IMG/VR virus record: IMGVR_UViG_3300009418_004726
Span: 1-51,118 of that record
Source of the DNA: a virus
Direction: 5' to 3' (one strand)
Length of the DNA: 51,118 nt
Within the stretch, counting starts at the first letter, position 1. Each line of letters begins with the position of its first letter. The position numbers were made by a program, and so were the translations under genes. Below the pieces are notes generated by a model. It saw only the letters and a program-made list of their open reading frames with translations. It did no database searches and was not told the DNA's origin. Of this stretch, positions 1,824 through 28,900 are shown piece by piece.

Positions 1824-3089
1824 GTGGATAATAAGATTAAGGTGCTTGTTTTAAGTGACCACCCGTTAAGCCCGTCGGGAGTTGGTACTCAAACAAGATA
1901 CATGATAGAAAGTCTTCTAAAGACTAACAAATTTAAGTTTTTCTGCCTGGCCGGCGCTATGAAACATGATGATTATAAAATATCTAATGTGGAAGGTTAT
2001 GGCAAAGATTGGGTTATAATGCCGGTAGATGGTTACGGGAGTCCTGAACACATGCGGACTATCATGCGTAATGAGAAGCCAGATATTGTTTGGTTTATGA
2101 CAGACCCAAGATTCTTCGGATGGTTATGGGAAATGGAAGATGAAATCCGTCCCATAGCACCAATGGTTTATTATCATGTATGGGACAACTATCCTTACCC
2201 AACATACAATTATCCTTTTTATGCTTCCAACGATGTTATCGCATGTATATCTAAGGTAACACATGATATTGTCCAGACCGTCGCTCCGGAGGTTCAAAGT
2301 CATTATTTACCACATTCAGTTGATACTGAGGTATTTAAGAAACTTGATATATCAGTTGTACAACAATTTAAAAAAGAATTCTTTTCATCTGATGATAAAT
2401 TTGTATTCTTTTGGAATAATAGAAATGCTCGTCGCAAACAAAGCGGCTCTTTGATTTTTTGGTTCAAGAAATTTTTAGATAAAGTCGGACACGATAAAGC
2501 TCAACTCCTCATGCACACAGACGTAAAAGATCCTCATGGACAGGATTTAGAGGCAATTGTACACCATTTGGGATTGATTAACGGCGAAGTAGTGTTTTCA
2601 CAACAAAAAGTTCCGTCTACTCATATGGCAATTATGTATAACGTGGTTGATTGTACAATCAATGTTTCAGATGCTGAAGGATTTGGGCTATCTACTTTTG
2701 AATCTTTAGCGTGCGAAACACCTATTATTGTTAATATGACCGGAGGTTTACAAGAACAAATAACTGATGGTGAAAAATGGTTTGGAGAGGGTATCAAACC
2801 AGCTTCAAAAGCTGTTATCGGGTCTCAAGAAATCCCTTGGATTTATGAAGATCGGGTTTCTGAAGAGGACGTTGTTGAGGCCATGTACAAAATATATAGC
2901 ATGTCTAAAGAAGAGAGAGATAAAATGGGTAAAGATGGAAGAGGACACGTCATGAAAAATTATAATTTTGAGCAATATACAAAAAGATGGGAAAAACTTT
3001 TATTGGATATACATGAAAAAATGGGTTCTTGGGAAACGAGAAAAAATTATAAGTCATGGGAATTAATTAATTTTGGAGAAGCAGCATAA
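1824..3089 (+). CDS. GT4-type glycosyltransferase (GT-B fold)
   Basis: This 421-aa protein starts at GTG 1824, with AAGGAG eight bases upstream. The N-terminal half has the acceptor-side glycine loop SPSGVGTQT (residues 16-24). The C-terminal half carries the donor-binding signature DAEGFGLSTFE around E285, followed by ETPIIVNMTGG. Both are typical of family GT4 retaining transferases that use nucleotide-activated sugars. No membrane segment is seen, so it is probably cytoplasmic. It opens the glycan island and its stop overlaps the start of the next glycosyltransferase by one base (TAATG), which implies coupled translation. Donor and acceptor cannot be read from sequence. Confidence 0.85.
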   Translation: MDNKIKVLVLSDHPLSPSGVGTQTRYMIESLLKTNKFKFFCLAGAMKHDDYKISNVEGYGKDWVIMPVDGYGSPEHMRTIMRNEKPDIVWFMTDPRFFGWLWEMEDEIRPIAPMVYYHVWDNYPYPTYNYPFYASNDVIACISKVTHDIVQTVAPEVQSHYLPHSVDTEVFKKLDISVVQQFKKEFFSSDDKFVFFWNNRNARRKQSGSLIFWFKKFLDKVGHDKAQLLMHTDVKDPHGQDLEAIVHHLGLINGEVVFSQQKVPSTHMAIMYNVVDCTINVSDAEGFGLSTFESLACETPIIVNMTGGLQEQITDGEKWFGEGIKPASKAVIGSQEIPWIYEDRVSEEDVVEAMYKIYSMSKEERDKMGKDGRGHVMKNYNFEQYTKRWEKLLLDIHEKMGSWETRKNYKSWELINFGEAA

Positions 3090-5185
3090 TGAGAAAAAAA
3101 GTTTTAATTAGAGGCCCTGTTTTAACACAATCCGGCTATGGCGAACATTGCAGGTTTCTTTTAAGGTCTCTTCGCAAATATGAAGATACAATTGACTTAT
3201 ACATTATTACCACCGGATGGGGAAGAACAAATTGGCAGTTTGAAGAAACAGAAGAAAGAATATGGATTGATAAATTAATAAGAAAAACATTAAACTATAT
3301 TGGAGAAAACAAAGGTCCGGTGGATGTTTCAATCCAGGTCACCATCCCAAATGAGTGGGAAAAACTAGCTCCATTTAATATTGGCGTTACTGCTGGTATT
3401 GAAACAGATAGAGTCTCTCGCGTTTGGCTTGAAAAAACTCAAATTATGGACAAAATTATTGTTGTTTCAGAACACGCAAAAAATGGTTTTGTTAAAACAA
3501 AATGTGAGATGGTTGATCAAAGAACTAGCACCACAATCAAAGATTGGGGCTGCACCGTCCCAGTCGAGGTTGTACATTATCCAGTTAAAAAGATTGGCAA
3601 AGTAAATATTGATTTAGATTTAAAATATGACTTCAACTTTTTAACTGTCGCTCAATGGGGCCCGAGAAAAAATATTAAAAATACAATTAAGTGGTTCTTT
3701 GAAGAATTCAAAAATGATGAAATAGGATTAGTGGTAAAAACTAATCTAGCCAAAAATTGTATTTTAGATCGCCTGACTATTAAAAATAAAATAAATTCAA
3801 TTGTGCATAAATTCCCAGAAGCTAAGTGTAAAGTTAGTTTATTGCATGGGTATATGACAGAAGAGGAAATGAACGGGCTCTATACACATCCAAAAATTAA
3901 AGCGCTGGTATCATTAACTCATGGCGAAGGTTTTGGGTTGCCTCTTTTCGAGGCTGCTTATAATTGTCTTCCTGTTATAGCAACAAACTGGAGTGGACAT
4001 CTAGATTTTCTTTATATGCCTCTAAAAAATAAAAAAGGCAAAGCTAAAAACAAACCTATGTTTTCTAGAATAGCTTATGAATTAAAAGAAATTGGCAAAA
4101 ACGCCGTCTGGCCCGGGGTTATTGATCCCGACGCGAAATGGGCTTATGCAGAGAAGGGATCTTATAAAATGAAATTAAGAGATGCCTTTAAAGATATTAA
4201 CAGATTAAAATCAAGAGCTAGAAAATTACAAAAACATTTGTTAGCTAATTTTACTGAAGAAAAACAAAATGAAGAATTTGCTGTTAAAGTTTTGGGCAAA
4301 GAAATAATGAATGCTGAAGAGGCTAAATATATTTTTGTAAGTGATTTCTTTTCAGATCAATTACAGGGCGGCGCCGAATTGAGTCTCCAAACATTAATTG
4401 ATAAAGCTGAAGAAAATAGTATTCGAATTAACTCTTCTGATTTGACAGCAAGTTTTGTCGACAGATATAAAGATAAAATATGGATAATTGGCAACTATAC
4501 TCAAGCACCAAAAGATGCCATAAAACAATTGACTGACAAAAAGTGTAATTACAATGTGATTGAATTCGATTACAAATTTTGTAAATATAGAAACTTAGAA
4601 TTACACGAAACTCTTGAAGGCGAGCCTTGTAATTGTATTGAAGGCGAACATGGTCAAGAAATTGAAAAATTTGTAGCTGGCGCCAAAAATGTATTTTTTA
4701 TGTCGGTAACACAGATGAATGTTTTTCTAAGCAAGCTTAAGACTCTTAAAAAATCTAGATGTATTGTTTTATCTTCTATTTTCAATGAAAAATTCTTTGA
4801 TATAATTAAACATTTGAGAGAAACATACAACGAAAAAGAGGAAACTTGGGTTGTATCTTCTTCTCCATCTTGGATAAAAGGATCAAAAGAAGCTGAAAAA
4901 TGGTGTGTTGACAATAATAAAGAATATAATAAAATGCATGGTTTAGTATATAAGGAAGCTCTAGAAACCTTAGCCAAATCAAAAGGCTTATGTTTCTTAC
5001 CTACCGGCGCCGACACATGTCCAAGATTGGTAATTGAGGCTAAATTATTAAATTGTGAACTTGAATTAAATGATAATGTACAACATATCAGCGAAGAGTG
5101 GTTTAACACAGATGATTTGACAATAACAGAAAACTACTTAAAAAGTAGGCCCGACGTCTTTTGGAAAAAGGTGAGTGGTGCCTGA
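3089..5185 (+). CDS. Tandem glycosyltransferase: GT4 half plus second GT-B-like half
   Basis: At 698 aa it is nearly twice a normal GT4 enzyme. Residues 1-410 form one complete unit with an SGYGEH loop near the N-terminus and HGEGFGLPLFE at about 278-288 (E280), the donor-site EX7E region. Residues about 415-698 start a second unit with FSDQLQGGAELS, an N-terminal glycine loop. They continue through a cysteine-bearing stretch (FCKYR, then PCNCIEG, about residues 486-520). They end in a C-terminal lobe reading LPTGADTCPRLVIEAKLL, which resembles a GT4 donor site but lacks the usual EGFG. The protein may be bifunctional, or the second half may be structural or acceptor-binding. It overlaps the next gene by 11 bases. 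Confidence 0.8.
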   Translation: MRKKVLIRGPVLTQSGYGEHCRFLLRSLRKYEDTIDLYIITTGWGRTNWQFEETEERIWIDKLIRKTLNYIGENKGPVDVSIQVTIPNEWEKLAPFNIGVTAGIETDRVSRVWLEKTQIMDKIIVVSEHAKNGFVKTKCEMVDQRTSTTIKDWGCTVPVEVVHYPVKKIGKVNIDLDLKYDFNFLTVAQWGPRKNIKNTIKWFFEEFKNDEIGLVVKTNLAKNCILDRLTIKNKINSIVHKFPEAKCKVSLLHGYMTEEEMNGLYTHPKIKALVSLTHGEGFGLPLFEAAYNCLPVIATNWSGHLDFLYMPLKNKKGKAKNKPMFSRIAYELKEIGKNAVWPGVIDPDAKWAYAEKGSYKMKLRDAFKDINRLKSRARKLQKHLLANFTEEKQNEEFAVKVLGKEIMNAEEAKYIFVSDFFSDQLQGGAELSLQTLIDKAEENSIRINSSDLTASFVDRYKDKIWIIGNYTQAPKDAIKQLTDKKCNYNVIEFDYKFCKYRNLELHETLEGEPCNCIEGEHGQEIEKFVAGAKNVFFMSVTQMNVFLSKLKTLKKSRCIVLSSIFNEKFFDIIKHLRETYNEKEETWVVSSSPSWIKGSKEAEKWCVDNNKEYNKMHGLVYKEALETLAKSKGLCFLPTGADTCPRLVIEAKLLNCELELNDNVQHISEEWFNTDDLTITENYLKSRPDVFWKKVSGA

Positions 5186-5900
5186 TGTTGTTCAAACGAT
5201 GTGGGTTGGAAACAAGCTTTCAACTATGGAAAGGCTTAGTTTAAATTCCTTCGTTAAAAATGGCCATGAGGTTCACCTATACACTTATTCTGATATTGAA
5301 GACGTACCTGAAGGGGTTGAAATCAAAGATGGGAACTCTATTCTGTCTGAAGATCTTATATTTATGTATAAGGATCATAAAAGCTATTCTGCCTTTTCAA
5401 ATTACTTCAGGTATAAATTGTTGTTTGAAAAAGGCGGATATTGGGTTGATACAGACGTTGTTTGTCTTAAGAAATTTGATTTTAAAACACCCTATCTTTT
5501 CTGTTCAGAAGAAGTATTACCCTTAAAACAAGGGAACACTCATGTTGGATCTTGTATTATAAAAATGCCAGCTGGCAATCCTATTGCTTTAGACTCTTTC
5601 GAGACATGTATGGAAAAGAAAAGAGAAATGCTCGTTTGGGGTGAAATCGGGCCTCGTTTAGTTAAACAAATGGTCGAAAAGTACAATATGTCTTTTTTCA
5701 TCAAACCACCAGAAACATTTTGTCCAATTCCTGGATGCTTGTGGAATCTTGTTTTAAACCCGGAACAAGAAATTAATTTTGGCGAAGAAACATATGCAAT
5801 TCATTTGTGGAATGAAATGTGGCGCAGGAGCAATACGGATAAGGACGCCACTTTTCCTTCAAATTCATATTACGAAAAGCTTAAAGCAAGGTATTTATAA
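5175..5900 (+). CDS. GT32-like glycosyltransferase with DxD motif
   Basis: This is a 241-aa protein of the DXD sugar-binding (Gly_transf_sug, GT32/Och1-like) type. The hallmark is FEKGGYWVDTDVVCLK, with D92-T-D94 as the metal and nucleotide-sugar ligand pair. It is preceded by the YSAFSNYFRYKLL helix typical of the family. The N-terminus VVQTMWVG is the usual first strand. The C-terminal HLWN(E) segment also fits. The start is one of two consecutive GTG codons (5175 or 5178). AAAGGTGA upstream is a modest ribosome site and the gene begins inside the previous one. It is a GT-A fold, unlike its neighbours, so at least two structural classes of transferase act in this island. Confidence 0.8.
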   Translation: MVPDVVQTMWVGNKLSTMERLSLNSFVKNGHEVHLYTYSDIEDVPEGVEIKDGNSILSEDLIFMYKDHKSYSAFSNYFRYKLLFEKGGYWVDTDVVCLKKFDFKTPYLFCSEEVLPLKQGNTHVGSCIIKMPAGNPIALDSFETCMEKKREMLVWGEIGPRLVKQMVEKYNMSFFIKPPETFCPIPGCLWNLVLNPEQEINFGEETYAIHLWNEMWRRSNTDKDATFPSNSYYEKLKARYL

Positions 5901-6889
5901 TGCTTAATATTTTGTATTTATGTGATAAGGATGTATGTGATACAAAAATGTCTCGTGTTCGTTTCCATGGAATGCGAGCTATTGGTAAGCGTAACGATGT
6001 TAACTTGATTTGGTCTGGGCCCAAATGGAATAATTATAATAATAATAAAACTGTAAATAAAAATATAGAAATAATTTATAAGGGCAAAAAACCAGATTTG
6101 GTTGTTGCTTATAAGCCTTTTAAATTAACAAAATTTCGTGAAGTTGATGTGCCAAAGTGTATACGATATAATGAGATGTATGATATTGATTGGACCAATA
6201 AAGAGATTTTAGATAGCAAATCAAATTTAATTATTTGCCATCACGAAAATGATATGTATCAGTATAAGAAGAAATTCTCTATGAGAAGTGACGATCATTC
6301 TATTCGATTTTATAATATCCCACATGCAGCGGAAAAAATCATTTATAGAGACTACGGCTTACCAAAAAAATATGATATATTATTGGCCGGCGCCGTAGAA
6401 ACGAGATCTCTTTTAGGCGATCATTATCCATTAAGAATTCGACTGGCCCGGGATATTCTGCCAAAAATGGTAAACAAATATAAATGTAATATTTTACAAC
6501 ATCCAGGTGGCAATATTTTTAATGCCACCTCAGATGAGAATAGTTTTTTCTATGCACAACAATTAAGTTCAGCTAAAATTTGTGTTACTTGCAGCGGTCA
6601 ACCACGATCTAGATTTGGGAAATATATTGAAATACCAATGTGTGGGTCAGCTCTGGCTGCGGATATGCCGGCCGAAGAACAAAATATATTTAAAGAATTC
6701 ATGATCGAGATTGATATGTCAATGAGCGACGAAGAAATAATTAATAAACTTTCTTATTATTTGGATAATGACGAAGAAAGGCAAATTCTCGTCAATAGGG
6801 GTCTAAAATACGCTGAAAACCACACGCAGGAAAAATATGCAGAACGGTTTGTACATATTGTAAAAGAATTTTTGGAGGAGACCAAGTGA
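5900..6889 (+). CDS. GT-B glycosyltransferase (CgeB/group 1-like)
   Basis: This 329-aa protein starts at ATG 5900, sharing one base with the preceding stop (TAATG). The first strand MLNILYLCDKD and a later KPDLVVAYKP segment form an N-terminal Rossmann-like lobe. The C-terminal lobe contains YDILLAGAV, then SSAKICVTCSG and YIEIPMCGSALAAD (about residues 240-256). That matches the donor-side EIxxCG pattern of CgeB/Glyco_trans_1_2-type transferases. It ends in a helical segment (NRGLKYAENHTQEKYAERF) typical of the final GT-B helix. It overlaps the sulfotransferase-like gene by four bases (GTGA). Donor and linkage are unknown. Confidence 0.7.
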   Translation: MLNILYLCDKDVCDTKMSRVRFHGMRAIGKRNDVNLIWSGPKWNNYNNNKTVNKNIEIIYKGKKPDLVVAYKPFKLTKFREVDVPKCIRYNEMYDIDWTNKEILDSKSNLIICHHENDMYQYKKKFSMRSDDHSIRFYNIPHAAEKIIYRDYGLPKKYDILLAGAVETRSLLGDHYPLRIRLARDILPKMVNKYKCNILQHPGGNIFNATSDENSFFYAQQLSSAKICVTCSGQPRSRFGKYIEIPMCGSALAADMPAEEQNIFKEFMIEIDMSMSDEEIINKLSYYLDNDEERQILVNRGLKYAENHTQEKYAERFVHIVKEFLEETK

Positions 6890-7587
6890 TCGTTATAAGT
6901 TCTACAGGAGGTTCAGGTTCCAGTTTTGTTGCTGATCAATTTGTGAAACATGGACATTCTGTATGTTTGCGTCCTGATGGTGGAAAACAAAAAGCAACAC
7001 ATACGCCTGCTCAAATATTTCATGAAAGAACGGTGCCTTTAATAGGTGAAACAAAAATTAATGATCAGTCAACTCAACAGGAAATGTTTGAGACAGCGTA
7101 CACTGAGCTTAAAAAAATAGATAATTCAAATTTAATGTTGCTGTGTATGACTTGGGGTGGCCTGGGTTTTTTAAATGATATTGAAGAAAAGACAATTTTT
7201 CTTGTTCGCGATCCCGTCTTTGCGTTCAATTCTTATTCCGGCGGAGGTTGGAGGCTTGAAGGCGGCCAGCGTAGAATAAAATATGCCGGCGCCCGCGGAC
7301 CAAATGATAAGAAATGGATCGATACTTGGATGGGTAATTTTTCACATTGGATCGATGGCGCAAAATACGCTTTAAAAGCTGTCGAAGAAGGCAAAGGACA
7401 TATTGTCAGATATCATAATTTTAAAGAGGATTGGTCTAAAATTGATAATGTACCACCAATTCATATGAATTTTGATTCTAAAGATAAATTGGAAAAAATT
7501 CAAAAAAAGGGTTATTTAGACATTGGGACAGTTGCTTATATTAAGAGCGAAACAAAAGATGTATGGTCTGAAATCCAAGCACTTTAA
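6886..7587 (+). CDS. Sulfotransferase-like protein (first of two)
   Basis: This 233-aa protein uses a GTG start at 6886 inside the GTGA overlap with the upstream stop. STGGSGSSF (residues 6-14) is the 5'-phosphosulfate-binding loop of sulfotransferases, which resembles a P-loop. IFLVRDPVFAFNSY (about 104-117) matches the 3'-phosphate-binding element, with Arg-Asp-Pro and a downstream serine. The length is at the short end for the superfamily. It would transfer sulfate from PAPS to a glycan or other acceptor. It differs from the second sulfotransferase at 9947, so the two probably modify different positions. PAPS could come from the APS kinase encoded at 12219 in the same island. Confidence 0.65.
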   Translation: MIVISSTGGSGSSFVADQFVKHGHSVCLRPDGGKQKATHTPAQIFHERTVPLIGETKINDQSTQQEMFETAYTELKKIDNSNLMLLCMTWGGLGFLNDIEEKTIFLVRDPVFAFNSYSGGGWRLEGGQRRIKYAGARGPNDKKWIDTWMGNFSHWIDGAKYALKAVEEGKGHIVRYHNFKEDWSKIDNVPPIHMNFDSKDKLEKIQKKGYLDIGTVAYIKSETKDVWSEIQAL

Positions 7588-7599: not shown

Positions 7600-9246
7600 A
7601 TGTCTAAAAAAATTAATTTTCCAATATTGGGTTCCCCAAAACAATTTCGGGGCCGAGTTAACAAAACTTTAGGTAATAATGAACTTCGTGATTATTTAGG
7701 TTCTAAAAGTGAAACGGGAAAATCAGGATTTTTTAAAAGAATCCCGGAACTTGTTGATTACAAAAAAATTGAAAATCCAAAAGTTCTCTTAATTGGTCCG
7801 TGTATTACCATTCCAAAATACATGCAAAAAAGATGTATTCCTCCTCTAGGAATTAGCTACGTAGCGGCTTCTCTAGAGAAAGCAGGTATAGATGTAGATA
7901 TGCTTGATCTATGCGTTGAAGGGTGGGATACTGAGCGTCCTAGCGGCAATCTGGTTACATATGGCAAACCACCTCAAGATATCGTTGAACAATTGAAAAA
8001 AAAACAATATGATATTGTTGGCTTGTCTGTGTTGTTTTCAACTGATTTGCCAAATTTATACGAAGCAACACAAGTTGTTAAAGAAACCTTGCCAGATTCT
8101 TTAATTGTAGTTGGCGGTTTACACCCTACAATTTATCCGAGAGAGATATTAGATCTAGATCTAGAATTTAACAATAAAAGAACAGTCGATTTTGTTATCC
8201 GCGGCGAGGGAGAATTTAGATTTGTTGATTTTATCAATAATTTAAAAGAAGGCAAAATTGATAAAAATGCTGACGGTTTGGTTGGGCTCATTAACAACAA
8301 ACTGTTTGTTAACGCACAAGTGGAAAATATTGAAAATATCGACGATATACCATATCCAGCCTTCCATATGCTGCCAATAGAAAAATATTTTGACATTAAC
8401 ATTCCTTTTTCTCCAGTCCCACAAGGCGAAAGAGTTCTTCCGATGCTAACAACACGTGGATGTCCTGTTGGTTGTTCTTTTTGTGCAAATACAAATACTT
8501 GGAAGAAACACCGGAAGCGCTCAATTGAAAATATTATGGGAGAAGTGCGTCATCTAAAAAAGATGTTTAATGTTGATGAATTGCAATTTGCAGATGATAA
8601 TTTAACTTATGATATGGTATATGCTTCTGAGAAATTTAAAGCATTGAAAGAAGAAAATTTGCTTTGGTGTACTCCTAATGGTACAATGATAAACAAATTA
8701 TCTGAAGGAATAATTGATTTAATGGCAGCTTCTGGTATGTACCAAATTACTTTATCTTTAGATAGTGCCAATGCCAGAACTCTTAAAGAACTGCACCACA
8801 AGCCTGTAAATTTAAATTCCATACCGGGTTTAATTAAAAAATGTAGAGAATTAAATGTTTTCACTCATGGTACTTTGGTTGTGGGAATGCCAGGAGAAAC
8901 CTTGGAAGAAATTCTAGAAGGATTTGAATATATTAAAGAAGAATTGGATTTTACTAGTATCTCTACTTTTATTGCAGCTGCTATCCCTGGATCCGAATTA
9001 TATCATGATATGTTAGAACAAGGAAAAGTAACTAAAAAAGCTGCTCGCGAAATAGATACAACAAAATCGAAGATTATGTTGGCCAACATCGATCCAAAAG
9101 AACTAGAAGAGGCTATAGAGGAATTCCAAACAGAGTATTTAAATATTGTTAAAAAAAGAGATCCGGAAGAGTATAATAGAAAATATAAAAAGTTAATTCA
9201 ATCTGGACGTTGGGATGAGAATCAGTGCGGTGGGAAATTAACTTAA
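7600..9246 (+). CDS. B12-binding-domain radical SAM enzyme
   Basis: This 548-aa protein has AAAGGAAGG upstream of ATG 7600. Residues about 60-190 form a cobalamin-binding-like Rossmann domain (PPLGISYVAASLEKAG, then IVGLSVLFST and VVGGLHPTIYP). The radical SAM core follows. TTRGCPVGCSFC supplies the [4Fe-4S] cysteines C288, C292 and C295, spaced C-x3-C-x2-C. QFADDNLTYD and later GTLVVGMPGET are core strands typical of B12-radical SAM proteins such as the BchE/P-methylase/HpnP group. Many members methylate unactivated carbon or phosphorus, but others do different chemistry, so the reaction is not assignable. Inside a glycan island a C-methylation or ring rearrangement of a sugar is a reasonable guess. 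The cofactor would come from the host. Confidence 0.85.
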   Translation: MSKKINFPILGSPKQFRGRVNKTLGNNELRDYLGSKSETGKSGFFKRIPELVDYKKIENPKVLLIGPCITIPKYMQKRCIPPLGISYVAASLEKAGIDVDMLDLCVEGWDTERPSGNLVTYGKPPQDIVEQLKKKQYDIVGLSVLFSTDLPNLYEATQVVKETLPDSLIVVGGLHPTIYPREILDLDLEFNNKRTVDFVIRGEGEFRFVDFINNLKEGKIDKNADGLVGLINNKLFVNAQVENIENIDDIPYPAFHMLPIEKYFDINIPFSPVPQGERVLPMLTTRGCPVGCSFCANTNTWKKHRKRSIENIMGEVRHLKKMFNVDELQFADDNLTYDMVYASEKFKALKEENLLWCTPNGTMINKLSEGIIDLMAASGMYQITLSLDSANARTLKELHHKPVNLNSIPGLIKKCRELNVFTHGTLVVGMPGETLEEILEGFEYIKEELDFTSISTFIAAAIPGSELYHDMLEQGKVTKKAAREIDTTKSKIMLANIDPKELEEAIEEFQTEYLNIVKKRDPEEYNRKYKKLIQSGRWDENQCGGKLT

Positions 9247-9261: not shown

Positions 9262-9945
9262 ATGTCAGGTGAAACAGAATTTACTTTAGATGATAGGAAA
9301 AAATTTAGCAAAATGCCAAAACCACAATTTGAGCAATTATGCACAAAATTGAGATTATGGGATAAATCTGGTATAAATGAGAAAAATGCAACCAGCGCAC
9401 TTTTTAAACTAGACGATATTTTAAAGCAAGAAAATTTAGGCTATTGGATTGTTTATGGTACTGCTCTTGGTTTCCACCGTGATGGAAATTTTATTCCATG
9501 GGATGATGATATCGATATCCACGTGCAAGCTAAAGAGTTTGAACCTAAGTTTGACAGCTACAAAGATAAATTAATTGAAGGTGGTTTTATTGTGAGAGCG
9601 GTCAAACGAGACGTATCAAGTAAGATGTCGTTGTTCTATCGCGGAATCAAAATGCAAATTCAAGGATTCTATAAAACAGAAAAAGAGCCACATCTGGTGC
9701 AGACAAAACTTTTTGTATACCCAGAAAAATATTATTATGAAGGCGCCTCTACTGTCGCTTATAAAGGCAGAGATTTTAGAACTCCTGGCCCGCCAGATGA
9801 ATATTTGACTTTTTGCTATAACGAAAATTGGAAAACGCCACAAAATATACCTGATTGGAGAGACTATATGAATGTTGATCAATTGAAAGATATTGGATGG
9901 ATCTCTGCTCACATACAACACAATAACCATAAAAAAAGAAAATAG
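9262..9945 (+). CDS. LicD-family nucleotidyl/phosphotransferase
   Basis: This 227-aa protein starts at ATG 9262 with TAGGAGA upstream. It shows the LicD/FKRP signature: YGTALGFHRDGNFIPWDDDID (residues 65-85). The G66-T-A-L-G70 loop and the D81-D-D-I-D85 metal site match the polymerase-beta-like nucleotidyltransferase fold. Known members attach phosphocholine, phosphoribitol or related phospho-alcohols to glycans. The substrate here is open. It sits between the radical SAM and second sulfotransferase genes, so it is likely a tailoring step that adds a phosphorylated group to the same product. It ends one base before the next ATG. Confidence 0.8.
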   Translation: MSGETEFTLDDRKKFSKMPKPQFEQLCTKLRLWDKSGINEKNATSALFKLDDILKQENLGYWIVYGTALGFHRDGNFIPWDDDIDIHVQAKEFEPKFDSYKDKLIEGGFIVRAVKRDVSSKMSLFYRGIKMQIQGFYKTEKEPHLVQTKLFVYPEKYYYEGASTVAYKGRDFRTPGPPDEYLTFCYNENWKTPQNIPDWRDYMNVDQLKDIGWISAHIQHNNHKKRK

Positions 9946-9946
9946 A

Positions 9947-10717
9947 ATGCCGACTTCCATTGAAAAAGAAATGCAAAGACTACAAGAGAAATATGGAATT
10001 ACTTTCGCCCACGCAAGCACTCTTTTAATATCATATCCAAAATCTGGAAGAACGTGGTTAAGGATGATGTTGGCTAAATTGATGATGTCGACTTATAAAG
10101 AAGCAAAAAACGACAGACATGAGATATTTCCATCGCTCCACGATTCTTATAAAGAAGTAAAAGCTAGATTTAAAGAAGATTATAAGGATCTAAATATTAT
10201 TTTTCTTCATAGACACCCCGCAGATACAGTTATCTCTTACTTTAAAGAAATGACAACTAACACCCTATCTGGCGTGTATTATGCCGGTACTATGAGTGAA
10301 TGTTTACGGAACGAAAGACATGGTTTGAACAGAGTTATAGAATATAATAATATGTGGGTCAGAAAACATAAGAACTTTAATCGCTTTTTAATGTTATCTT
10401 ATTATATGTTACATAAAAATCCCTTTGCTTGTTTAGCAGCAATCACCCAGGTGGTTGAATTACCGACCATCAAAGAGGCTATTGAAGAAGCTATTGAATA
10501 TAGTACCTTTGATAACATGAAAAAAATAGAAAAAGGCGAAGGAGATAATTTGCTCGAACATTATAAAGGAAATTTTGGCGTTGAACCCGGCCGCGTTCGA
10601 GTTGGAAAATACAATAATTATCATAATATTTTGAGCGAAGAAGATATAAAATATGTTGAAGAGTGCATGAAAAATAGTTTAATTAGTTATTCGTATGATG
10701 AAGAGCAAGATAAATGA
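9947..10717 (+). CDS. Sulfotransferase (second of two)
   Basis: The start is placed at ATG 9947, one base after the LicD stop. An in-frame ATG at 9893 would add 18 residues encoded inside the LicD gene and is less likely. The 256-aa product has a classical 5'-PSB loop, YPKSGRTWLR (residues 30-39), where the lysine contacts the 5'-phosphosulfate. The 3'-PB element IFLHRHPADTVISYF has the conserved Arg and Ser. A later GRVRVGKYNNYHN segment resembles the C-terminal PAPS-binding GxxG loop, and a following helix ends the domain. The family uses PAPS to sulfate hydroxyl or amino groups. Motifs are much clearer than in the 6886 gene. It overlaps the FkbM gene through ATGA. Confidence 0.85.
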   Translation: MPTSIEKEMQRLQEKYGITFAHASTLLISYPKSGRTWLRMMLAKLMMSTYKEAKNDRHEIFPSLHDSYKEVKARFKEDYKDLNIIFLHRHPADTVISYFKEMTTNTLSGVYYAGTMSECLRNERHGLNRVIEYNNMWVRKHKNFNRFLMLSYYMLHKNPFACLAAITQVVELPTIKEAIEEAIEYSTFDNMKKIEKGEGDNLLEHYKGNFGVEPGRVRVGKYNNYHNILSEEDIKYVEECMKNSLISYSYDEEQDK

Positions 10718-11589
10718 TGATTTATAGAAAAGAGGTGGATGGTTTTGATTGGGTTTTAAATATTTCAGACGGCGGCATCGGCTCAACCTTATATAACGCT
10801 AATACTCCAGGTAAAGATTACAAATTCGCCCGAGAAAGCATGTTTATGCAGCTTTTAGATACTGTTATAGGGGAAGGTATGACCTGTATTGATTTAGGCG
10901 CTAATATAGGCTATGCGACGATGTTTATGTTAAGAAATTCGGGTGATTCTGGAACAGTTTATGCGATTGAGCCAGATCCTCATAACCTACGCCTACTTAA
11001 AATCAATTTGGCCGAAAACGGATATAGGAATAAATGTGAAAAAACACAGTGTCTTATAACTGATAAAGATGGAAAGAGTGAATTTTGGATTGCCCGCCAC
11101 CCAAATCTTAATAGTGTTAGAAAAACAAGGCATAGTGTCCGACGTGAAATTATTGATTGTTTCACATTGAAAACATTTTGTTCCACAAGAAAATATCCTA
11201 ACTTTATTAAAATGGATATTGAGGGACATGAAGTAAAGGTGTTCGAAAGCGGTTATGAATACTTTAAAAATAATGAAGGAGAAACACATTTCCTTCTAGA
11301 AGTGCATCCACAGTATTATGATAGTAATAACAACTTCGCAAAAATTCTTAATAAATATTATGATATTGGTTTTAAAATAAAGTATTTGGTTGGGACTCCT
11401 TCTAAAACTCTGCCTCCTTTTAGGGATGCTGGTTATAAACCAATAAAACAAATTGAGTCTGATGGCTGGGTTCGGTCCCTATACGAGAATATTCCTCAAA
11501 AAGACGCTATTAAGTTTGCATGCAATTTGTTTAATAATGTTCATGGGAAAAAAACAGTTCGCAGCATTATGGTTTCAAGGGAGAAATAA
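10714..11589 (+). CDS. FkbM-family SAM methyltransferase (first of two)
   Basis: This 291-aa protein begins in an ATGA overlap with the upstream gene; the first two codons are both ATG. Motif I is CIDLGANIGYATM (residues 58-70) and the acidic end of beta-2 is YAIEPDP. FIKMDIEGHE (about 164-173) is the FkbM hallmark that follows the catalytic region. FLLEVHPQYY supports the fold. FkbM enzymes are mostly O-methyltransferases acting on sugars or polyketides. A second, shorter FkbM gene follows immediately, so two positions or two sugars may be methylated. Its C-terminal extension of about 80 residues beyond the FkbM core is unassigned. Confidence 0.85.
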   Translation: MMIYRKEVDGFDWVLNISDGGIGSTLYNANTPGKDYKFARESMFMQLLDTVIGEGMTCIDLGANIGYATMFMLRNSGDSGTVYAIEPDPHNLRLLKINLAENGYRNKCEKTQCLITDKDGKSEFWIARHPNLNSVRKTRHSVRREIIDCFTLKTFCSTRKYPNFIKMDIEGHEVKVFESGYEYFKNNEGETHFLLEVHPQYYDSNNNFAKILNKYYDIGFKIKYLVGTPSKTLPPFRDAGYKPIKQIESDGWVRSLYENIPQKDAIKFACNLFNNVHGKKTVRSIMVSREK

Positions 11590-11593
11590 TAAA

Positions 11594-12214
11594 ATGATAA
11601 AAGTTAATTTGTTTTACGGAGACGATTATGAAGGAGAACTAGTAGAATTTGAATTTAAAGACGGATCTGTCGCTATCGACTGTGGCGCGAATATAGGAGA
11701 GGTGACACATTTTCTGTCAGAAGCAGGCTTTGAAAAAGTATATTCATTTGAGCCAAATCTTTATGCATTCAACATTCTACAGAGAAGATTTGCAGATAAT
11801 CCTAAAGTTGAATGTTTGCCAAAGGCGGTTACAAATTCTTCAAAATCAGGACCAGGAAAGCTATATTTTCACAAAAAAGCAAACCAGAATCAAATAAAAT
11901 ATTCTAAAGGGTGTTCGACCGCACCAGATAAGCATAATGTTGATGAAAACAATTTTATGGTTGTAGAGATGGTGGGTATTAGTGATTTTATCAAAAGTTT
12001 AGATCGCCCGGTGGGGATGCTAAAAATTGATGTTGAAGGTACCGAAGCAGATATTTTAAACGACTTATTTGAATCTGGACTCATTAATGAGATTGGTCAA
12101 ATATTTGTTGAGACTCATGAAAGCAAGGTACCATCTTCACAAAATGATATGAAATTGATAAGAGAGAGGATAGAAAAAGAAGGAATTAAAAATATTCATC
12201 TAGAATGGGAATGA
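11594..12214 (+). CDS. FkbM-family SAM methyltransferase (second of two)
   Basis: The frame is open upstream to an ATG at 11453, but those 47 codons lie wholly inside the previous FkbM gene. ATG 11594 has GGGAG about 10 bases before it and gives a 206-aa protein starting MIKVNLFYGD, so I chose that start. Motif I is AIDCGANIGEVTH (residues 28-40), SFEPN is the acidic end of beta-2, and LKIDVEGTEAD (about 143-153) is the FkbM signature. IFVETHE follows. It is shorter than its neighbour and diverged from it, so this is not a recent duplication. The likely role is O-methylation of a glycan. Confidence 0.85.
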   Translation: MIKVNLFYGDDYEGELVEFEFKDGSVAIDCGANIGEVTHFLSEAGFEKVYSFEPNLYAFNILQRRFADNPKVECLPKAVTNSSKSGPGKLYFHKKANQNQIKYSKGCSTAPDKHNVDENNFMVVEMVGISDFIKSLDRPVGMLKIDVEGTEADILNDLFESGLINEIGQIFVETHESKVPSSQNDMKLIRERIEKEGIKNIHLEWE

Positions 12215-12218: not shown

Positions 12219-12950
12219 ATGATTAGCACAAGAAAAAGAAATATATTAAAAGCAGCAAGTTGGAAAACTTTAGGATTTATCACACTTTCAGCTTTGACAT
12301 ATGTGATAACTGGCTCTTTAAAACAAATGACATATATTGCTATATTCTATCACCTTTTTATGCTTATGGCTTTTATGTTCCATGAAAGAATTTGGGACAA
12401 AATTCGATGGGGGAAGACAAAAGGATTGGCAATTCAAATGACAGGGATGTCCGGCGCCGGAAAAAGTACTTTAACAAAACTTGTTTCCCAACATTTAAAA
12501 AAGAAAGGTCTATTAGTTGAAATAATCGACGGGGATGAATATAGAGCTAATTTGTGTAGTGACTTGGGGTTTTCAAAGGAAGATAGAAATACGAACATCC
12601 GGCGCCTCGGTTTTGTTAGTAAAGTATTATCCCGCAATAACGTGATTACAATTATTGCAGCAATCAACCCTTACGATATCGTTAGGAAAGAATTAACTAA
12701 AAAGGATAAAAACTTAAAAACAGTTTATGTCAAATGTAAATTAGGGACGTTAATTAAAAGAGATACAAAGGGACTCTATAAAAGAGCGCTCCTTCCTGAC
12801 GGCCATCCAAACAAGGTTTATAATTTTACTGGTATTTCAGATCCGTTTGAAGAACCAATTAGCCCGGACTTGATTATAAATACTTCTGAACAAAGTATCG
12901 ACAAGTCTGTTAAAATATTGGAACAATTCATTTTAAGAGAGATCACGTGA
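12219..12950 (+). CDS. cysC: DUF2061 membrane domain fused to APS kinase (CysC-like)
   Basis: This 243-aa protein has two parts. Residues 1-65 match the DUF2061 pattern (KAASWKTLGF, two hydrophobic stretches at about 17-31 and 37-53, then HERIWDKIRWG) and should anchor it to the inner membrane. Residues 68-243 are adenylylsulfate kinase: Walker A GMSGAGKST (76-84), IIDGDEYR (102-109), GFSKEDRNTNIRRLG (117-131), KRDTKGLYKRA (180-190) and the APS-kinase-specific FTGISDPFE (203-211). It phosphorylates APS to PAPS, the sulfate donor for both sulfotransferases in this island. APS must come from host ATP sulfurylase. The usual SPYR-type motif reads NPYD here, which could affect activity. The next gene overlaps through GTGA. 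Confidence 0.9.
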   Translation: MISTRKRNILKAASWKTLGFITLSALTYVITGSLKQMTYIAIFYHLFMLMAFMFHERIWDKIRWGKTKGLAIQMTGMSGAGKSTLTKLVSQHLKKKGLLVEIIDGDEYRANLCSDLGFSKEDRNTNIRRLGFVSKVLSRNNVITIIAAINPYDIVRKELTKKDKNLKTVYVKCKLGTLIKRDTKGLYKRALLPDGHPNKVYNFTGISDPFEEPISPDLIINTSEQSIDKSVKILEQFILREIT

Positions 12951-13882
12951 AAGAAATAGACAATCATCATAAAGCAAACGCCCGGGATCTCCCCAAATGT
13001 CTTGTAACAGGCCACAAGGGCTATATCGGCGCCCATTTATTCAAAAGATTGAAAGAACTTGGTCATGAAGTTCAAGGTATTGATTTACAGGAAGAATATA
13101 GTAAAGATATCTGTGGTTTGGAGGGCTTAGTAGAAGATGAACAGGGTAATTTTCACCCACACTATTGGAATTTTAAGCCTGAATATATTTTTCATATGGC
13201 GTGTTTTCCTAGAGTTGGTTATAGTGTAGAAAATCCTGTCCTAACAATGAAGAATAATGTTATGATAGGCACACATGTACTTAATTTTGCAAGGAAAGTC
13301 GGAGCCAAAAGAGTAATATATTCTAGTTCTTCTTCTGTTAACGGCAATGGCCAAGGCCCTGAGAGCCCATATGCCCTCCAAAAAATGGTTACAGAGTTAG
13401 AATGCCAACTTTATTCCAAGTTATATGGTTTGGATACTGTTTCATTAAGATATTTTAATGTATACTCAGAAGACCAGAAAACAAATGGTTCATACGGAAC
13501 AGCAATTGCAAATTGGATGCAGGCAATTAGAGAAAAAAAGGTACCTTATATCACGGGCCGCGGCTCCCAAAGAAGAGATATGATACATGTACAAGATGTC
13601 ACGTCTGCGAATATTTTTGCAATGAATTTTAATAGATATACTTTTTCTGGAGATGTATACGATATTGGCACAGGTTCTAATATTTCTTTAAATGAGATAA
13701 AAGACATTGTTCAAAAACATTTTCCAGCTGTTAGTTTCGATTATGTCGATCCACGCGCTGGGGACGTTGATCGCACCCGCGCCCAAATAGAGGATTTAGA
13801 AAGTCTTGGATGGAAGGCGGAAATTTCTATTGAAAGTGGTATTAATAACTGTTTTAAGGAACTAAAGAATGAATTATCCTAG
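12947..13882 (+). CDS. NAD-dependent nucleotide-sugar epimerase/dehydratase (SDR)
   Basis: This 311-aa extended short-chain dehydrogenase starts at GTG 12947 in a GTGA overlap. TGHKGYIGAHL (about 21-31) is the G-x2-G-x2-G dinucleotide loop and GIDLQE is the acidic end of beta-2. YSSSSSVNG gives the catalytic serine region, and Y142-x3-K146 (YALQK) the catalytic pair. LRYFNVYS and GRGSQRRDMIHVQDVT are the substrate-domain signatures of UDP-glucose or UDP-GlcNAc 4-epimerase-type enzymes. Dehydratases and reductases of the same fold cannot be excluded. With the adjacent dehydrogenase it would supply an epimerised or oxidised sugar donor. It overlaps the next gene by 14 bases. Confidence 0.85.
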   Translation: MKEIDNHHKANARDLPKCLVTGHKGYIGAHLFKRLKELGHEVQGIDLQEEYSKDICGLEGLVEDEQGNFHPHYWNFKPEYIFHMACFPRVGYSVENPVLTMKNNVMIGTHVLNFARKVGAKRVIYSSSSSVNGNGQGPESPYALQKMVTELECQLYSKLYGLDTVSLRYFNVYSEDQKTNGSYGTAIANWMQAIREKKVPYITGRGSQRRDMIHVQDVTSANIFAMNFNRYTFSGDVYDIGTGSNISLNEIKDIVQKHFPAVSFDYVDPRAGDVDRTRAQIEDLESLGWKAEISIESGINNCFKELKNELS

Positions 13883-14723
13883 TACAGACAGTATTGGAAT
13901 TGTTGGCCAAGGATTTGTTGGGACGGCCCTTCGTGAAGGTTTAAAGAAGACTTTTGAAATTGAAACTTACGATAAATTTAAGACAGAAGATTCGACTTGT
14001 AAAAGTTTAGAAGAGCTTTGCGAAAAAACGTTTATTCTATTTTTATGTCTTCCAACACCTATGAGAAAAGATGGCTCATGTGATCTTTCAATTGTAGAAG
14101 GTGTTATAAGTGAGGTCGATATACTTTCCACAGGTGATCATATTGTTGTTGTTAAGTCAACAGTCCCACCAGGAACGACCAGGAAACTCAATCAAATATA
14201 TACAAATTTAAAAATTGTATTTTCACCAGAATTTTTGACAGAAGCAAATAGTATTGATGATTTCAAAAATCAAACCAGGATTATTGTTGGAGGCCCACGC
14301 CCTGCGTCGACGATTGTCAAAAATATGCTTAGGATCGCCTTCCCAAAAATTACAATTGTTAAAACTGGCTCGAATACTGCAGAAATGGTAAAATATTTCA
14401 CAAATTGTGTTTTGGCAACAAAAGTCAGCTTTGCAAACGAAATAAAACAAATATGCGATAAAACAGATATTGATTATGATAAAGTTGTTGAATACGCTCT
14501 TTATGATGAAAGAATTGGTAGAACCCATCTTTCTTCCCCCGGCCCCGATGGGCATCTGGGCTTCGGCGGCTCGTGCTTCCCTAAAGATATCAACGCTTTA
14601 ATCCATTTTGCAAATGAATCTGGCGTTTCGCCAATGGTTTTAGAAGCAGTATGGAAAAAGAATTTAGAAGTTAGACCTGAAAGAGATTGGGAAAATCTCA
14701 AAGGCCGAGCTGTCAGCGAATAA
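13869..14723 (+). CDS. UDP-glucose/GDP-mannose 6-dehydrogenase, short form
   Basis: This 284-aa enzyme has IGIVGQGFVGTAL (residues 8-20, Rossmann loop) and KSTVPPGTT. FSPEFLTEA, the Glu-bearing active-site loop, is also present. The central helix includes AEMVKYFTN, and FGGSCFPKD carries catalytic C236. It oxidises a nucleotide-sugar C6 alcohol to a uronic acid. The usual C-terminal UDP-binding Rossmann domain is absent: the protein ends at RPERDWENLKGRAVSE, while typical enzymes run to about 390-450 residues. The stop is clean and followed by AAAGGAG for the next gene, so this looks like a natural short form, not a frameshift. It is the last gene of the island. Confidence 0.85.
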   Translation: MNYPSTDSIGIVGQGFVGTALREGLKKTFEIETYDKFKTEDSTCKSLEELCEKTFILFLCLPTPMRKDGSCDLSIVEGVISEVDILSTGDHIVVVKSTVPPGTTRKLNQIYTNLKIVFSPEFLTEANSIDDFKNQTRIIVGGPRPASTIVKNMLRIAFPKITIVKTGSNTAEMVKYFTNCVLATKVSFANEIKQICDKTDIDYDKVVEYALYDERIGRTHLSSPGPDGHLGFGGSCFPKDINALIHFANESGVSPMVLEAVWKKNLEVRPERDWENLKGRAVSE

Positions 14724-19946: not shown

Positions 19947-22900
19947 ATGGTAGAAATTTTAAAAAAACATGAAGTCAGTACGTTATATAAGATAACGGAA
20001 AACACCTTTGATTTAATGAAACAGGACAACAATGTCTGGCCAGGTGTTCCTTTTCATAAATTTCAATGGCCCGGGATGGAAACAGTGCCTGAATATAACC
20101 CATTGTTATTCGGCCTTCTTATCAACTCTTCTGATATGATTCAAGACTTTCTGAGACCAGGAGCTGTTGTAAAATTTGTTTCCAATATTGTTATCATAAA
20201 CACGAATGGCGACAAAGAAGTAAATAATGATTATATTCTTGTAAGATTAATCTACGCCCGGTCAGCAATAGAACATGTAATACCTGAGACTGACGAAGTT
20301 GTCTATCCTTTAATACCCACGCAAATGGCAGGTGAAAACGAAATGGCTTACATTGACGAGTATGTTGGTATCGTTAAAAAGAAATATTTTGAAAATTTCG
20401 TAATGGATCCTTCTCACACGTTTTATGATAAACTTCAAGAAGCACACAAACAAAACAAAGTCAATAAAGAATTAGAAGAGAAGATCCGGGCCAAACCGGT
20501 TTATACATTAAAAAATCTTAAAAAATTTTGGTGGCTTCCGTGGGGAAAAGAATCCAAATACCGGGGCACAGAAACTTTTAATAGAGATAACCTAGTAACA
20601 GCATTTCCCGACCAAGGTATTGTGTGGGATTCCAATATAACGTGGAAAGTTAAGATTATACAATATGCTAGTTACTTCGACAGATCGTCAGTATGTGGTG
20701 AAAACCCAGATAGCAGCTGTCCTTTGGCTCTGGTGGCCAGAATCGATGATAAACACCAACATGGCTCCGCAGCAGACTGGGCGAACGCCGATGACGAGTC
20801 TACATGGTTGCCTCAAAAAGATGTTGATGAAAAAGTAACGCCGAATGCAAGATATGGTTATGTTTTTCGATCATTATTAAAGGCAGCACAAGGCGAAGGA
20901 ACTTACGTTACACCCTCAAATCCACCAACTGCAGATCTTAGCCTCCCATCGCCTGCTAGTACTGGTCAACAGCCTCCAGGAGCCGCGATCGATAAAGCCG
21001 AATCGATTGGAAAAGATGAGAATAAATGTAAATATTATGTGAAAGTTAAGGTAACTTACCAGGGCACTGAAGAACAATTAAAAAATGATAAGCTTCTCGA
21101 TACTGCTTTAAGAATTTATGCTTTTGAAGAGTTGTTACGGAATTATAATAAGATAGCTGTTTATAATCCAGGGGCTTGGGCAACCAAAGACTCTGGCGAC
21201 ACTTCGTACAAACCAGAAGAAAAGAAAATATTGAATGAAGCTTACGTTAGCTGTCAAGTGGAAGAAAAGAAAAAAGTTACTAGCCCAAATGGGAAGGCTA
21301 CAGTTTTGATATCGGTATCTTCTGGTCTCTTTGACAAAATTCCAGATCGCCCTTCATTAACACCATGGGTTTCCCAATCCGCTAGTGATCTTAGATGCCG
21401 TCTTTTTCTTAAAAAGGAAGGTGTTACATTTGAAGAGATTATTACTAGTGAAAAAGATGCTTCTACTTATATTACTACTCGTTTTTCACTAGAAGATGTT
21501 GAACAGATGGCAGAAACTTATGTCAACGTTTTTCATCGGAGATATGTTTCTGAATATATGGAATATATAAATTTAGTAAGTATCGACTTCCAGATGGAAG
21601 CAGATTATTTAATGAAGTTTGTTAATGGGATTAAGAAGTTAGCGAGAGATAATAATTTAGATATAACTAACCGACCCGGCAAAAATTCGATTATTGATGT
21701 AATATTTGATAAAGATTATAGAGTAAAAAATGTTATATATTCTAAGGAGGGTCCCTGGAATGGTGAACTTTATCAATTTAAAATAGGTACTCCTTCTTTT
21801 ATAAGCAGCGCGAATAATAAGTCTACGAATAAGTTAATTTATGATTTGTGTTCTTCTTCTGTTGTTAACGATCCCGCCACTGGCCACGACAACCCAACGG
21901 TAGTACAGAGCCAGGCCGCTTCCAAACCCACCCTCGGTATACTTGGATACTTTCAGGTTCTTCATAAAACATTTTCGGACCCTCCTTCAACCATATTACA
22001 AGCACCTCCCCCCGGTAAAAATTCTTCCCAGCAGCCTCCAATTATATTTAATCTTAATGATTTCTTTAAAACAGTTTATCCGTCACCAAACCCAAGAGTT
22101 GAAATAAAACCAACAATATCTCGGCGTACCTATACCCCACCCGATACAGAAGAAGCAAAATTTCCCACGGGCCCGAAATCACTGGCGCAACGTCAACGCG
22201 AAGACAAATCTATTACTGCAGTGATTAAAAGAGAAGGAAAAAATTTAAAGAAAACAAAAGGCTCAATATTCCCTAAAGAAACCAATAAGTTTGTTGGGGA
22301 TCTCGTTAAATCGAAAAGCGCGTTCAATATGATATTACATTCAGAAACGTTTTTTGGACCTAAAGGGTTATACCAACAGCTTCTGAACAAAACAAATTTG
22401 CATGTCTGGCTTAAAAGTGTTTTTGAATGTGCCGGTTATGATTTGAAAGGTGATGATCTGTTTGAAGTTCTTTGTAATATTGTTTTGAAAAATCTTCCAT
22501 GGGAAAAAATTAAAGATGAAGTTCTGATGAACCTTAATGAAGCCACTGGAGAAGTCACTAACTGGTGCAACAACGCACTAGAAGATATCTACGAGGAAAT
22601 ATCATCTCCGATGGGCGCGCAAGATTTTGATCTGGACAAAGCGATGCAAGGCCTCGGCGATGTTTTAAAATATGCTGACCCCAAATGGTACCCTGGATTT
22701 GATAAAACAACACAATTATATAATTCTTTAAATATGGGGAAAACCCCTGTGGGTTCAGGTGGATCCTCTCCTACATTTGGAGGTAAATCTACAAGTTTAT
22801 CTAAGTGTGCTGACATGGCACCAGAGGAGCCAAAATTTCCTCCTGGAGTCAAGCCAAACCCGAATACACCCGAAATTGAAATACCATATTTAGCTCATGA

Positions 22901-25900: not shown

Positions 25901-28900
25901 TAAAACATTGCCACAAGCTAGGATGTTCTCAAAATATGTTATGAACATTCTTTACAAAAACCTTTTTGAAGTAAGAAGAGGTGTATACGATTCGCCTCCA
26001 GACAATCTAATAGAATCTATAAAAAAGGTAAGGGATATACTAGAAATTTATGTTTTTCCAAGGGTTACAAATAATTTAATTCGTTCTTTAGGCGAGTATG
26101 TATCGCATTCAAAATATTTCGATACTAAGGAGATGTACAAATTAACACAAACATTGTGTGACCCAACAAAAATACCTTTTGATTTAATTGGTATTGGCGA
26201 AATTAAAGAACAAATTTCAAAACGCTATGTCCAGCATCGTAAAAGACTTCTCAAAGAAGAACAGCAAAATGAAAATAGTGAATTTGAAGATCCTCCCGGC
26301 AACGGACCTTTTGAATTCGCGATGATGGAAGGAACTGTAAAACTAATATTAAGAACATATTTGGCAGAATTATTAATACGTTCTATTTTTATATACGATA
26401 GATTCGTTTTTGAAGAAGTCATGGACAATGATATGTTTCTTGAATTGTTTGCAAAACAGTTTTTGATAGGCATAGAAAATTATATTGGTGAACAAGATCC
26501 TAAAGTATTCAAAAATATCTTTTTAAGAGAATGTAAATATCTAGCCAAATCTACATGGGATTCTGTTAGTCCAAAAAAATATCCAAAACAACAAGTTTTT
26601 AATGATAACACGGTTTTGATCAAACATCTTACTTCTATAGAAATTCAAGATATTGGGTCCAAAATCAATTCCTTATTTTCCCTCGATGCCGAGAAAATTA
26701 AGCCACTTAAAGAAGTATTCTTTGATGATTTAAAATATGGATTTTTAAGAAATTCTGGAATAAACTTTGGCCAAGACACTACGCCCACAAGTTATTATAT
26801 GTTCAATTATTCAGATTCATATAATTTAACGGAATTGGATCCCATTTCTGATATGGCTCAAAAGTCACAAATGACAATTGATCAAGCTTCAAAACAAGGC
26901 GCCGCTGGTCTTGACGACGCAGTTTATTTCGATGCAGACGAAAATGAGATGGATTTTCAAGCTTTTCCGTATGATAAAAACAAAACTACAAAGCTTGGTT
27001 TTGGTGAATTTGTTATTGAACCATATGTTAGGTTGGTTGACTGGGAAGTGGAAGAAGGCATTAATGCTGAGTTTCCTTTAACTGCTTTTGACAAAGCTTT
27101 CGGCCCGAATGGAAATTTAGAGGAGTTTGGACTTCCTGGATATACTAGAAAAGATTGGGCTAGAGGAGTACTTGGTCTTCGAGATTTACAAAAATTTGCA
27201 ATAGATTTGATGGAACACTTGAACCAATCAGCAGAAGATGCAGGTGACGGGGGTTGGGGCTTCTTACAACAATTCGGGCAACATAATTTTCCCCTAAGCG
27301 CCTTTTACAAAGAGTTGAAATGGGGTATACGACTTAACTTGATTATACCGGCTGATCCGGAATGGGATTCAGACCAAATTCCTTTTGAAAAATTAGAGGA
27401 AGCCTTTAATAAATTAATTAGCAGCACTGCTTACGAAAATCGATGGGTACCAGCAATACACAAATCCTATCGTGTTTGGCGCCAAAATAAAGAAAAGCTC
27501 AATAATCCAGATGCGGCCAAGGGAGGAGAAGACCCTTTTGTATGGGTAACCAAAAAAATTCCATACTTCGTTATGCCTTTGACTTATGAAGAAATGGATG
27601 CAGATGTCAATAAACCGGGCTCAGGAGCCGTCCTTGGTTTCGCAACCGATCTAGTAAGTCGTTCTTTCAAAGAATTAGCTGATCTAAAAGCCAAAAACTT
27701 TAATTTAGAGCTAGCAAGATACATTAAATATCCGTCAGACGCAGATGTATATAGAACCAAATTCAACATGGGTTACAGAGATCCAGCTTATCTTAAGTTT
27801 GAAGAAACAGTAGATATATATGACGGAGGTAAAGTAATTGGTGAAACAGCAGGTTCATTAGTACCAGTAGTTATACATAGTGATCGGCTGATGATGCCCG
27901 GGATCGCCGGCGATGTGTCAGATTTTGAGGGTATTACATCTGTCGAAGATTCATTAATTAATTATTATGGTGAAACATATGGCCTCGGGGCCAATCATGT
28001 TGCAAATTATTCATGGACAGATAAAGACGGCGACTTCCACCCAGCTGTTGGTAATGATCTCTTTGTATTAGGTAATTATTCCGAGAAAGCGTATGCGGAT
28101 CCTGATGGATACGGTGATAGTAAACGATGGACCAAGGCGCCCAATGGAAATGATAGCATCCACGATACATGGAATGCTCACGTTGGTTTATTAACAACAA
28201 AATACGCGAGAAATCAATTTGCACAATGGATGGGTATAGGCGTTGAATTAGACGAACAGCCTTTCACGAGAGACAACACAGAGATTTCAAGTATGCATCG
28301 AGAGCAGGACCGACCAGATTATAATCCTGCAAAACATCCTGGGCTGGTAGGCCGGCCAGATTTTAATGTAAAATTTATTATTGATTATGAAAGTAATATA
28401 CAAGAGGGAACATATCCACACGGAGCTTCCGACAATGCCGGTTGCAAAAAATTTACCTTTAAAGATTATCAAAAAATCTTTCCATCTATTGATGAAACAG
28501 CTTATTTGGATTACATATACAATTTCGGCATAGAAAGTACCGGGGTTAAAGTAGAGTATCTTGATTATGATTTTGAAAATGACGGCAAAAAATATGAAAA
28601 TATGCCACTAACCGATACTCACTTCAAGAACATGGCTGCATATAAAATGAGCAGGTGTAAAAAATCACCCTCTTGGAAACAAATCGGCGCGTCTTTTCCA
28701 GGCGGTAGCGAGGTTTCAAATTTAACCGAATGGTCAGCTGTTGGCCAAAAACAACTAATAAAGCCGGCCGGTATGACAATATATGATATTTATCCACCAA
28801 ATTATTACAATTGGAATCAGGTTGCCACTGATAATCAAGAAACATTTTTAAAGTACCTTATTAGCAAATTCGCCCAACCGGCCGACGGCGGGTCCTTAGC

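Follow-up and report, generated by a model that had tools for sequence, protein, structure and literature searches.

The closest described systems are cobalamin-type radical SAM enzymes of C-P metabolism and pathways that tailor cell surfaces with phosphonates. PhpK is a B12 radical SAM methylase that acts in C-P metabolism, and P-methylation of the PhpK type needs an H-phosphinate. The NCBIfam family NF038361, "Sden_1168 family B12-binding radical SAM P-methyltransferase", bears a name that we take to rest on a Shewanella denitrificans enzyme (SD_1168) acting in vitro on demethylphosphinothricin; Allen and Wang are said to have found in 2014 that it P-methylates (N-acetyl-)demethylphosphinothricin in vitro. 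Fom3, from fosfomycin biosynthesis, acts on a CMP-phosphonate, 2-hydroxyethylphosphonate-CMP, which is methylated at carbon (PMC8992657), and a Fom1 fusion has been described (PMC6697681). In cell-surface tailoring by the Pnt and 2-aminoethylphosphonate (AEP) pathways, capture of a CMP-phosphonate by carbohydrate or lipid has been proposed (Rice 2019, PMC6697681; Acker 2022, PMC8931226). Among cultured phages, Vibrio phage Va2 (MW073017) has an annotated phosphoenolpyruvate mutase with a TPP-binding protein nearby (101695-118402). A search of the open-access literature for phage PepM or SD_1168 yielded nothing relevant.

The window analyzed here (51,118 nucleotides, positions 1-51,118 of IMG/VR virus record IMGVR_UViG_3300009418_004726) harbors on its plus strand a gene at 7600-9246 that opens with ATG and encodes a 548-residue B12-binding radical SAM protein (rSAM) of the NF038361 rSAM_Sden_1168 family. 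A clear ribosome-binding site, AAGGAAGG, lies a few bases 5′ of the start codon. Residues 79-208 (7834-8223) make up the B12-binding (Rossmann) domain (PF02310, 81.5 bits, E 5.5e-23) with the motifs PPLG, DIVGLS, VGGLHPT, and RGEGE; the family as a whole conserves the Rossmann-loop motifs (PPLG, GxS, GGxHxT, RGEGE). The radical SAM domain spans residues 283-442 (8446-8925; PF04055, 76.9 bits, E 2.6e-21), and both matches are far over their cut-offs. The C-x3-C-x2-C [4Fe-4S]/SAM motif, read directly as CPVGCSFC at 8461-8484 (C288, C292, C295), is intact and conserved across all aligned relatives. The pairing of a B12-binding domain with an intact cluster motif, the starting point of the preliminary description, is confirmed by these features.

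The setting of the gene within a glycan cluster, also proposed there, holds as well, and the cluster genes share its strand. Upstream are four glycosyltransferase genes found by profile search (1824-3089, 3089-5185, 5175-5900, and 5900-6889) and a gene for a 233-residue P-loop protein (6886-7587) with a GGSGSS P-loop and an FLVRDP segment. This protein is sulfotransferase-like by eye only, has no significant Pfam match, and gives a predicted structure (pLDDT 42) too poor for use. The gene after rSAM encodes a LicD-family transferase (9262-9945; PF04991, E 4e-13) that scores 50.3 bits against a gathering score of 22.6, the best stretch being the N-terminal motif only. Next come a sulfotransferase gene (9947-10717; PF00685, E 1e-15; the ORF opens with TTG at 9893, and 9947 is its first internal ATG), two FkbM-type O-methyltransferase genes (10714-12214; PF05050), an APS kinase gene for PAPS supply in sulfation (12219-12950; PF01583, E 3e-42), and genes for an NAD-dependent sugar epimerase and a UDP-sugar dehydrogenase homologue (12947-14723; profile search). 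The cluster sits upstream of baseplate wedge genes, and the window is therefore assigned to a phage. Bacterial contamination of the contig was considered and is ruled out, with glycan and baseplate genes on one contig and a gene order that recurs in other viral records.

Several other features of the window stand apart from rSAM. The APS kinase, which carries an N-terminal DUF2061 segment, and the sulfotransferase ORF (9893-10717), perhaps with the P-loop protein, suggest phage-made PAPS and glycan sulfation. The UDP-sugar dehydrogenase homologue (13869-14723) matches the NAD-binding domain profile only from position 69, so its N-terminal nucleotide-binding part seems to be missing, and the protein may be inactive or partner-dependent. 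A 127-residue ORF lies between the APS kinase and epimerase genes in three related phage contigs, L002 (13424-13807), L003, and L004, and is absent from the window (junction at 12940-12960). Two giant ORFs, 19947-31784 (3945 residues) and 36035-45583 (3182 residues), flank the baseplate genes and presumably encode tail or adhesin proteins. At 162-668, two Pfam families of zinc metallopeptidases (Peptidase_M90 and another named after a toxin domain) match weakly, below their cut-offs; the product is probably just a small metallopeptidase fold.

In a search of 18,950 NCBIfam models, NF038361 is by far the best match to the 7600-9246 protein (2.5e-173, residues 26-531). The score of 577.7 bits lies only 2.7 above the equivalog cut-off of 575, and the rSAM of the related phage L005 falls just under it at 570.5. 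This narrow pass counts against a phosphonate-related function, as does the transfer of phosphocholine and other phosphodiesters by LicD enzymes. The next family, HpnJ (1.4e-40), reaches 139.6 bits against a cut-off of 577.6, BchE 120.9 against 481, and PhpK (TIGR04479) 85.7 against 600; HpnJ, BchE, the RiPP methylases, and PhpK all score at most 140 bits.

An AlphaFold2 model of rSAM from a 24-sequence alignment (pLDDT 88.2, pTM 0.89) has the two-domain fold of TsrM, TokK, and CysS. Its best Foldseek matches in the PDB (E 3e-23 to 1e-18, with query TM-scores of about 0.55-0.65 across >425 columns) are TsrM, AprD4, CysS, MgmA, TokK, and OxsB, most of which are cobalamin radical SAM methylases. 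AprD4 is not known to use cobalamin, and the fold alone is thus no proof of cobalamin binding; cobalamin use by rSAM is predicted. With its B12 motifs conserved and a fold like that of TsrM and TokK, the modeled cobalamin pocket does not look collapsed, a defect that had been raised beforehand as grounds for doubt. Non-methyl chemistry such as the ring closure, ring contraction, or rearrangement performed by BchE, HpnJ, and OxsB might be invoked on the grounds that HpnJ and BchE rank next among the families and that OxsB and AprD4 are among the fold matches. However, HpnJ and BchE score 4-5 times lower than NF038361 and fall far short of their cut-offs, and the neighboring genes suggest no ring substrate, so that such a reaction appears very unlikely. 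The protein is most likely a cobalamin-type radical SAM methyltransferase, which supports the earlier suggestion of a chemistry beyond the reach of FkbM O-methyltransferases.

Four further viral contigs (L002-L005) encode rSAM at about 70-91% identity, giving five phage copies in all, and a scan with an alignment of the wider clade A described below returned only these four. The dN/dS of rSAM against close phage copies is 0.05-0.07, indicating strong purifying selection, and together with the four further viral copies it marks a maintained gene rather than a chance one. In all five phages, rSAM is adjoined by LicD and keeps the P-loop protein as its upstream partner. A B12-binding radical SAM gene that is only very remotely related (22% identity) is present in the cultured Streptomyces phage SF3, and enzymes of this type are therefore found in phages more than once.

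Cellular relatives were found by scanning genomes with a degenerate fixed-spacing DNA pattern (DDNLT...WxTPNG); a scan based on the phage-only alignment, with patterns that were phage-specific, found none. In the resulting tree, the five phage proteins group together with 100/100 support and are sister to proteins of an Omnitrophota genome (58%) and of Cyanobacteria bacterium SZAS LIN-3 (59%). These, followed by Verrucomicrobia and one Planctomycete, constitute clade A, while clade B comprises enzymes of Shewanella, Streptomyces, SUP05, SAR116, Parabeggiatoa, and a second Omnitrophota copy. The phage clade and the Shewanella-type enzymes form separate sister clades at 43-47% identity, and PhpK is very distant (branch 5.5). 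Kinship with PhpK was considered as a basis for the P-methyl label and is ruled out by the tree. The family is rare (one of 384 Omnitrophota and one of 392 Planctomycetota genomes), which limits the neighborhood statistics.

The gene neighborhoods of the cellular relatives point to phosphonates. At 58-59% identity, bacterial rSAM genes lie within 3 kb of genes for PepM, phosphonopyruvate decarboxylase, and cytidylyltransferase. In SZAS LIN-3, rSAM is <3 kb from the only PepM gene of the genome, which is fused to a CTP-transferase, and from Ppd and another cytidylyltransferase-like gene. The Omnitrophota order is rSAM(A), CDP-alcohol phosphotransferase, PepM::NTP-transferase, NTP-transferase, Ppd, rSAM(B), PhyH dioxygenase, and class V aminotransferase. 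In Shewanella, a PepM::NTP-transferase gene lies about 8 kb from rSAM with kinases in between, and rSAM is also PepM-linked in four Streptomyces/Kitasatospora genomes. SUP05 rSAM adjoins a CDP-alcohol phosphotransferase gene and verrucomicrobial rSAM an NTP_transf_3 gene. The Planctomycete enzyme is encoded in a polysaccharide cluster, 1.3 kb from the only LicD gene of that genome. No canonical PepM was found in two clade-A genomes (Verrucomicrobia and Planctomycetes), a point against the phosphonate reading. Linkage to PepM, seen in phage L005, LIN-3, Omnitrophota, Shewanella, and Streptomyces and absent on the window contig, G006, and G007, is a frequent association of NF038361 and not a formal criterion of the family. 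The Omnitrophota PepM cluster (L050:8654-19901, G008:C27) thus holds two NF038361-type genes, one per clade, besides those for the CDP-alcohol phosphotransferase and the PhyH dioxygenase; it may make a phosphonolipid or phosphonoglycan that is modified twice, and the presence of one enzyme of each clade suggests that clades A and B perform different steps.

These contexts bear on methylation of a sugar or lipid carbon within the phage glycan cluster, with no phosphonate involved, which is the kind of substrate that the preliminary description had suggested. The glycan setting and lack of PepM on the window contig are in keeping with it, as are the polysaccharide cluster of the Planctomycete relative and the CDP-alcohol phosphotransferase beside that of SUP05. 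Yet the best family match is not any sugar-methylating B12 radical SAM family; the nearest relatives lie beside PepM, Ppd, and cytidylyltransferase genes, where chance adjacency is very unlikely in those genomes; and more than one phylum shows the link to LicD, PntC-like, or CDP-alcohol transferase genes. A sugar or lipid carbon is thus disfavored and unlikely, and family, tree, cellular neighborhoods, and one phage neighborhood point instead to a phosphonate-derived head group. Membership in a subgroup with a known non-glycan function had been named as an argument against a glycan role; the subgroup is indeed one of phosphonates and phosphinates, but in the Planctomycete and in the phages the setting is one of glycan tailoring.

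The phage neighborhood in question is that of L005, a 78 kb phage contig with an rSAM 69-70% identical to that of the window. Its gene row reads PepM, PpdA, PpdB, PhnW-like, cytidylyltransferase, P-loop protein, rSAM, and LicD, such that a five-gene cassette at 4224-7311 (variant PepM, split Ppd, AEP-transaminase-like protein, and cytidylyltransferase) lies upstream of rSAM. The best match of the cytidylyltransferase is human ethanolamine-phosphate cytidylyltransferase (1.4e-38). PepM genes are present in 12 viral contigs (L005, L060, L061, and L063-L071), the cassette is seen wherever the contig is long enough, and LicD genes are next to it in L060. In all 12 viral copies, EDNPSPKRCSFYG replaces the EDK(X)5NS loop, which is kept in 30 of the 30 Streptomyces PepM loci checked. 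The L005 protein, with the loop EDNPSPKRCS, scores 219.3 bits against the TIGR02320 cut-off of 319.55 and thus departs from canonical mutases in both score and catalytic loop; the closest solved structures to the viral variant are still PEP mutases. A 2022 marine survey required the EDK(X)5NS motif for PepM (PMC8931226) and would for this reason have dropped the viral variants. Vibrio phage Va2 differs in having the canonical loop EDKNPSAKINS, and the region of its genome that was read shows neither an annotated rSAM nor a glycan cluster around the mutase gene.

Taken together, the family assignment, the tree, the neighborhoods of cellular relatives, and one phage relative support the reading that rSAM methylates a phosphonate-derived head group, of the AEP type and probably CMP-activated, that LicD puts on the glycan of the phage cluster, with a host-derived donor in phages of the window type. 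We assign this reading a probability of roughly 0.55. In L005, PepM would convert PEP to phosphonopyruvate, which would be taken to phosphonoacetaldehyde, then to AEP, and finally to CMP-AEP, an enzyme order drawn from the known AEP and Pnt pathways (PMC6697681). rSAM would then place a methyl group from methylcobalamin on the head group, at P or at C, and LicD would transfer the methylated head group to the glycan built by the phage cluster. The main weakness is that the PepM cassette occurs in only one of the five rSAM phages and rSAM, within the stretches read, in only one of the 12 cassette contigs. The window, L002, L003, and L004 keep the P-loop protein, rSAM, and LicD, and neither PepM nor a PF01467 or PF12804 cytidylyltransferase was found on these four records. 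The activated head group would accordingly be host-made in such phages, unless the records are incomplete, as they may be.

The position of the methyl group divides the phosphonate reading in two. P-methylation would yield a methylphosphinate, with a C-P-C linkage, from an H-phosphinate head group, in line with the name of the best-matching family and with the activity reported for its founding Shewanella denitrificans enzyme. Against it, the neighborhoods read contain no recognized phosphinate branch that could supply a P-H substrate, since PepM, Ppd, aminotransferase, and cytidylyltransferase follow AEP logic. Furthermore, the phage clade is only sister to the Shewanella type, the Omnitrophota cluster with both clades suggests different jobs, and PhpK, a true P-methyltransferase, is a very distant relative; P-methylation therefore appears doubtful. 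Alternatively, rSAM may methylate a CMP-activated phosphonate at carbon, by analogy with Fom3. This chemistry requires no P-H source and fits the cytidylyltransferase and Fom1-like PepM fusion genes that adjoin rSAM in close relatives, but the one assayed family member reportedly methylates phosphorus. Fom1-type fusions were absent from the Streptomyces PepM loci searched. C-methylation is hence a possibility that we hold tentatively.

Compared with the described systems, the phage enzymes share with NF038361/SD_1168 the domain order, the CxxxCxxC, DDNLT, and WCTPNG motifs, and, in several members, linkage to PepM. They differ in forming a separate clade that is LicD- and glycan-linked, and P-methylation is reported for the Shewanella enzyme and not for the phage clade. 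The likeness to Fom3 is one of context: a B12 radical SAM gene by cytidylyltransferase and PepM fusions in close relatives, and the substrate type proposed; the phage product would go to a glycan, that of Fom3 to an antibiotic. PhpK differs in its cysteine motif (CAFxCxFC/CSFGCAFC versus CPxGCxFC in the phage-type family). The PepM-Ppd-transaminase-cytidylyltransferase logic of the Pnt/AEP pathways recurs here, but its genes belong to phages (L005 and 11 further contigs), the PepM loop is non-canonical, Ppd is split, and L005 adds a radical SAM methylase.

With moderate confidence, the substrate to be considered for these enzymes shifts from a sugar carbon to a phosphonate. In a fuller form, which we regard as speculative, phages encode a C-P pathway that begins with a non-canonical PEP mutase and attach phosphonate to glycans of the virion or of the host surface; some of these phages would also methylate it through a cobalamin-dependent radical SAM enzyme, and the resulting methylated phosphonate or phosphinate on a glycan would be a modification new to the literature. 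Vibrio phage Va2 might serve as a laboratory model for studying phosphonate genes of phages. According to one proposal, marine phosphonates are carried by surface glycoproteins of bacteria and protect against phages and grazers (PMC8931226). If phages do carry phosphonate-glycan genes and a B12-requiring modifier, this interaction would be two-sided, and viruses would join the sources of organic C-P compounds.
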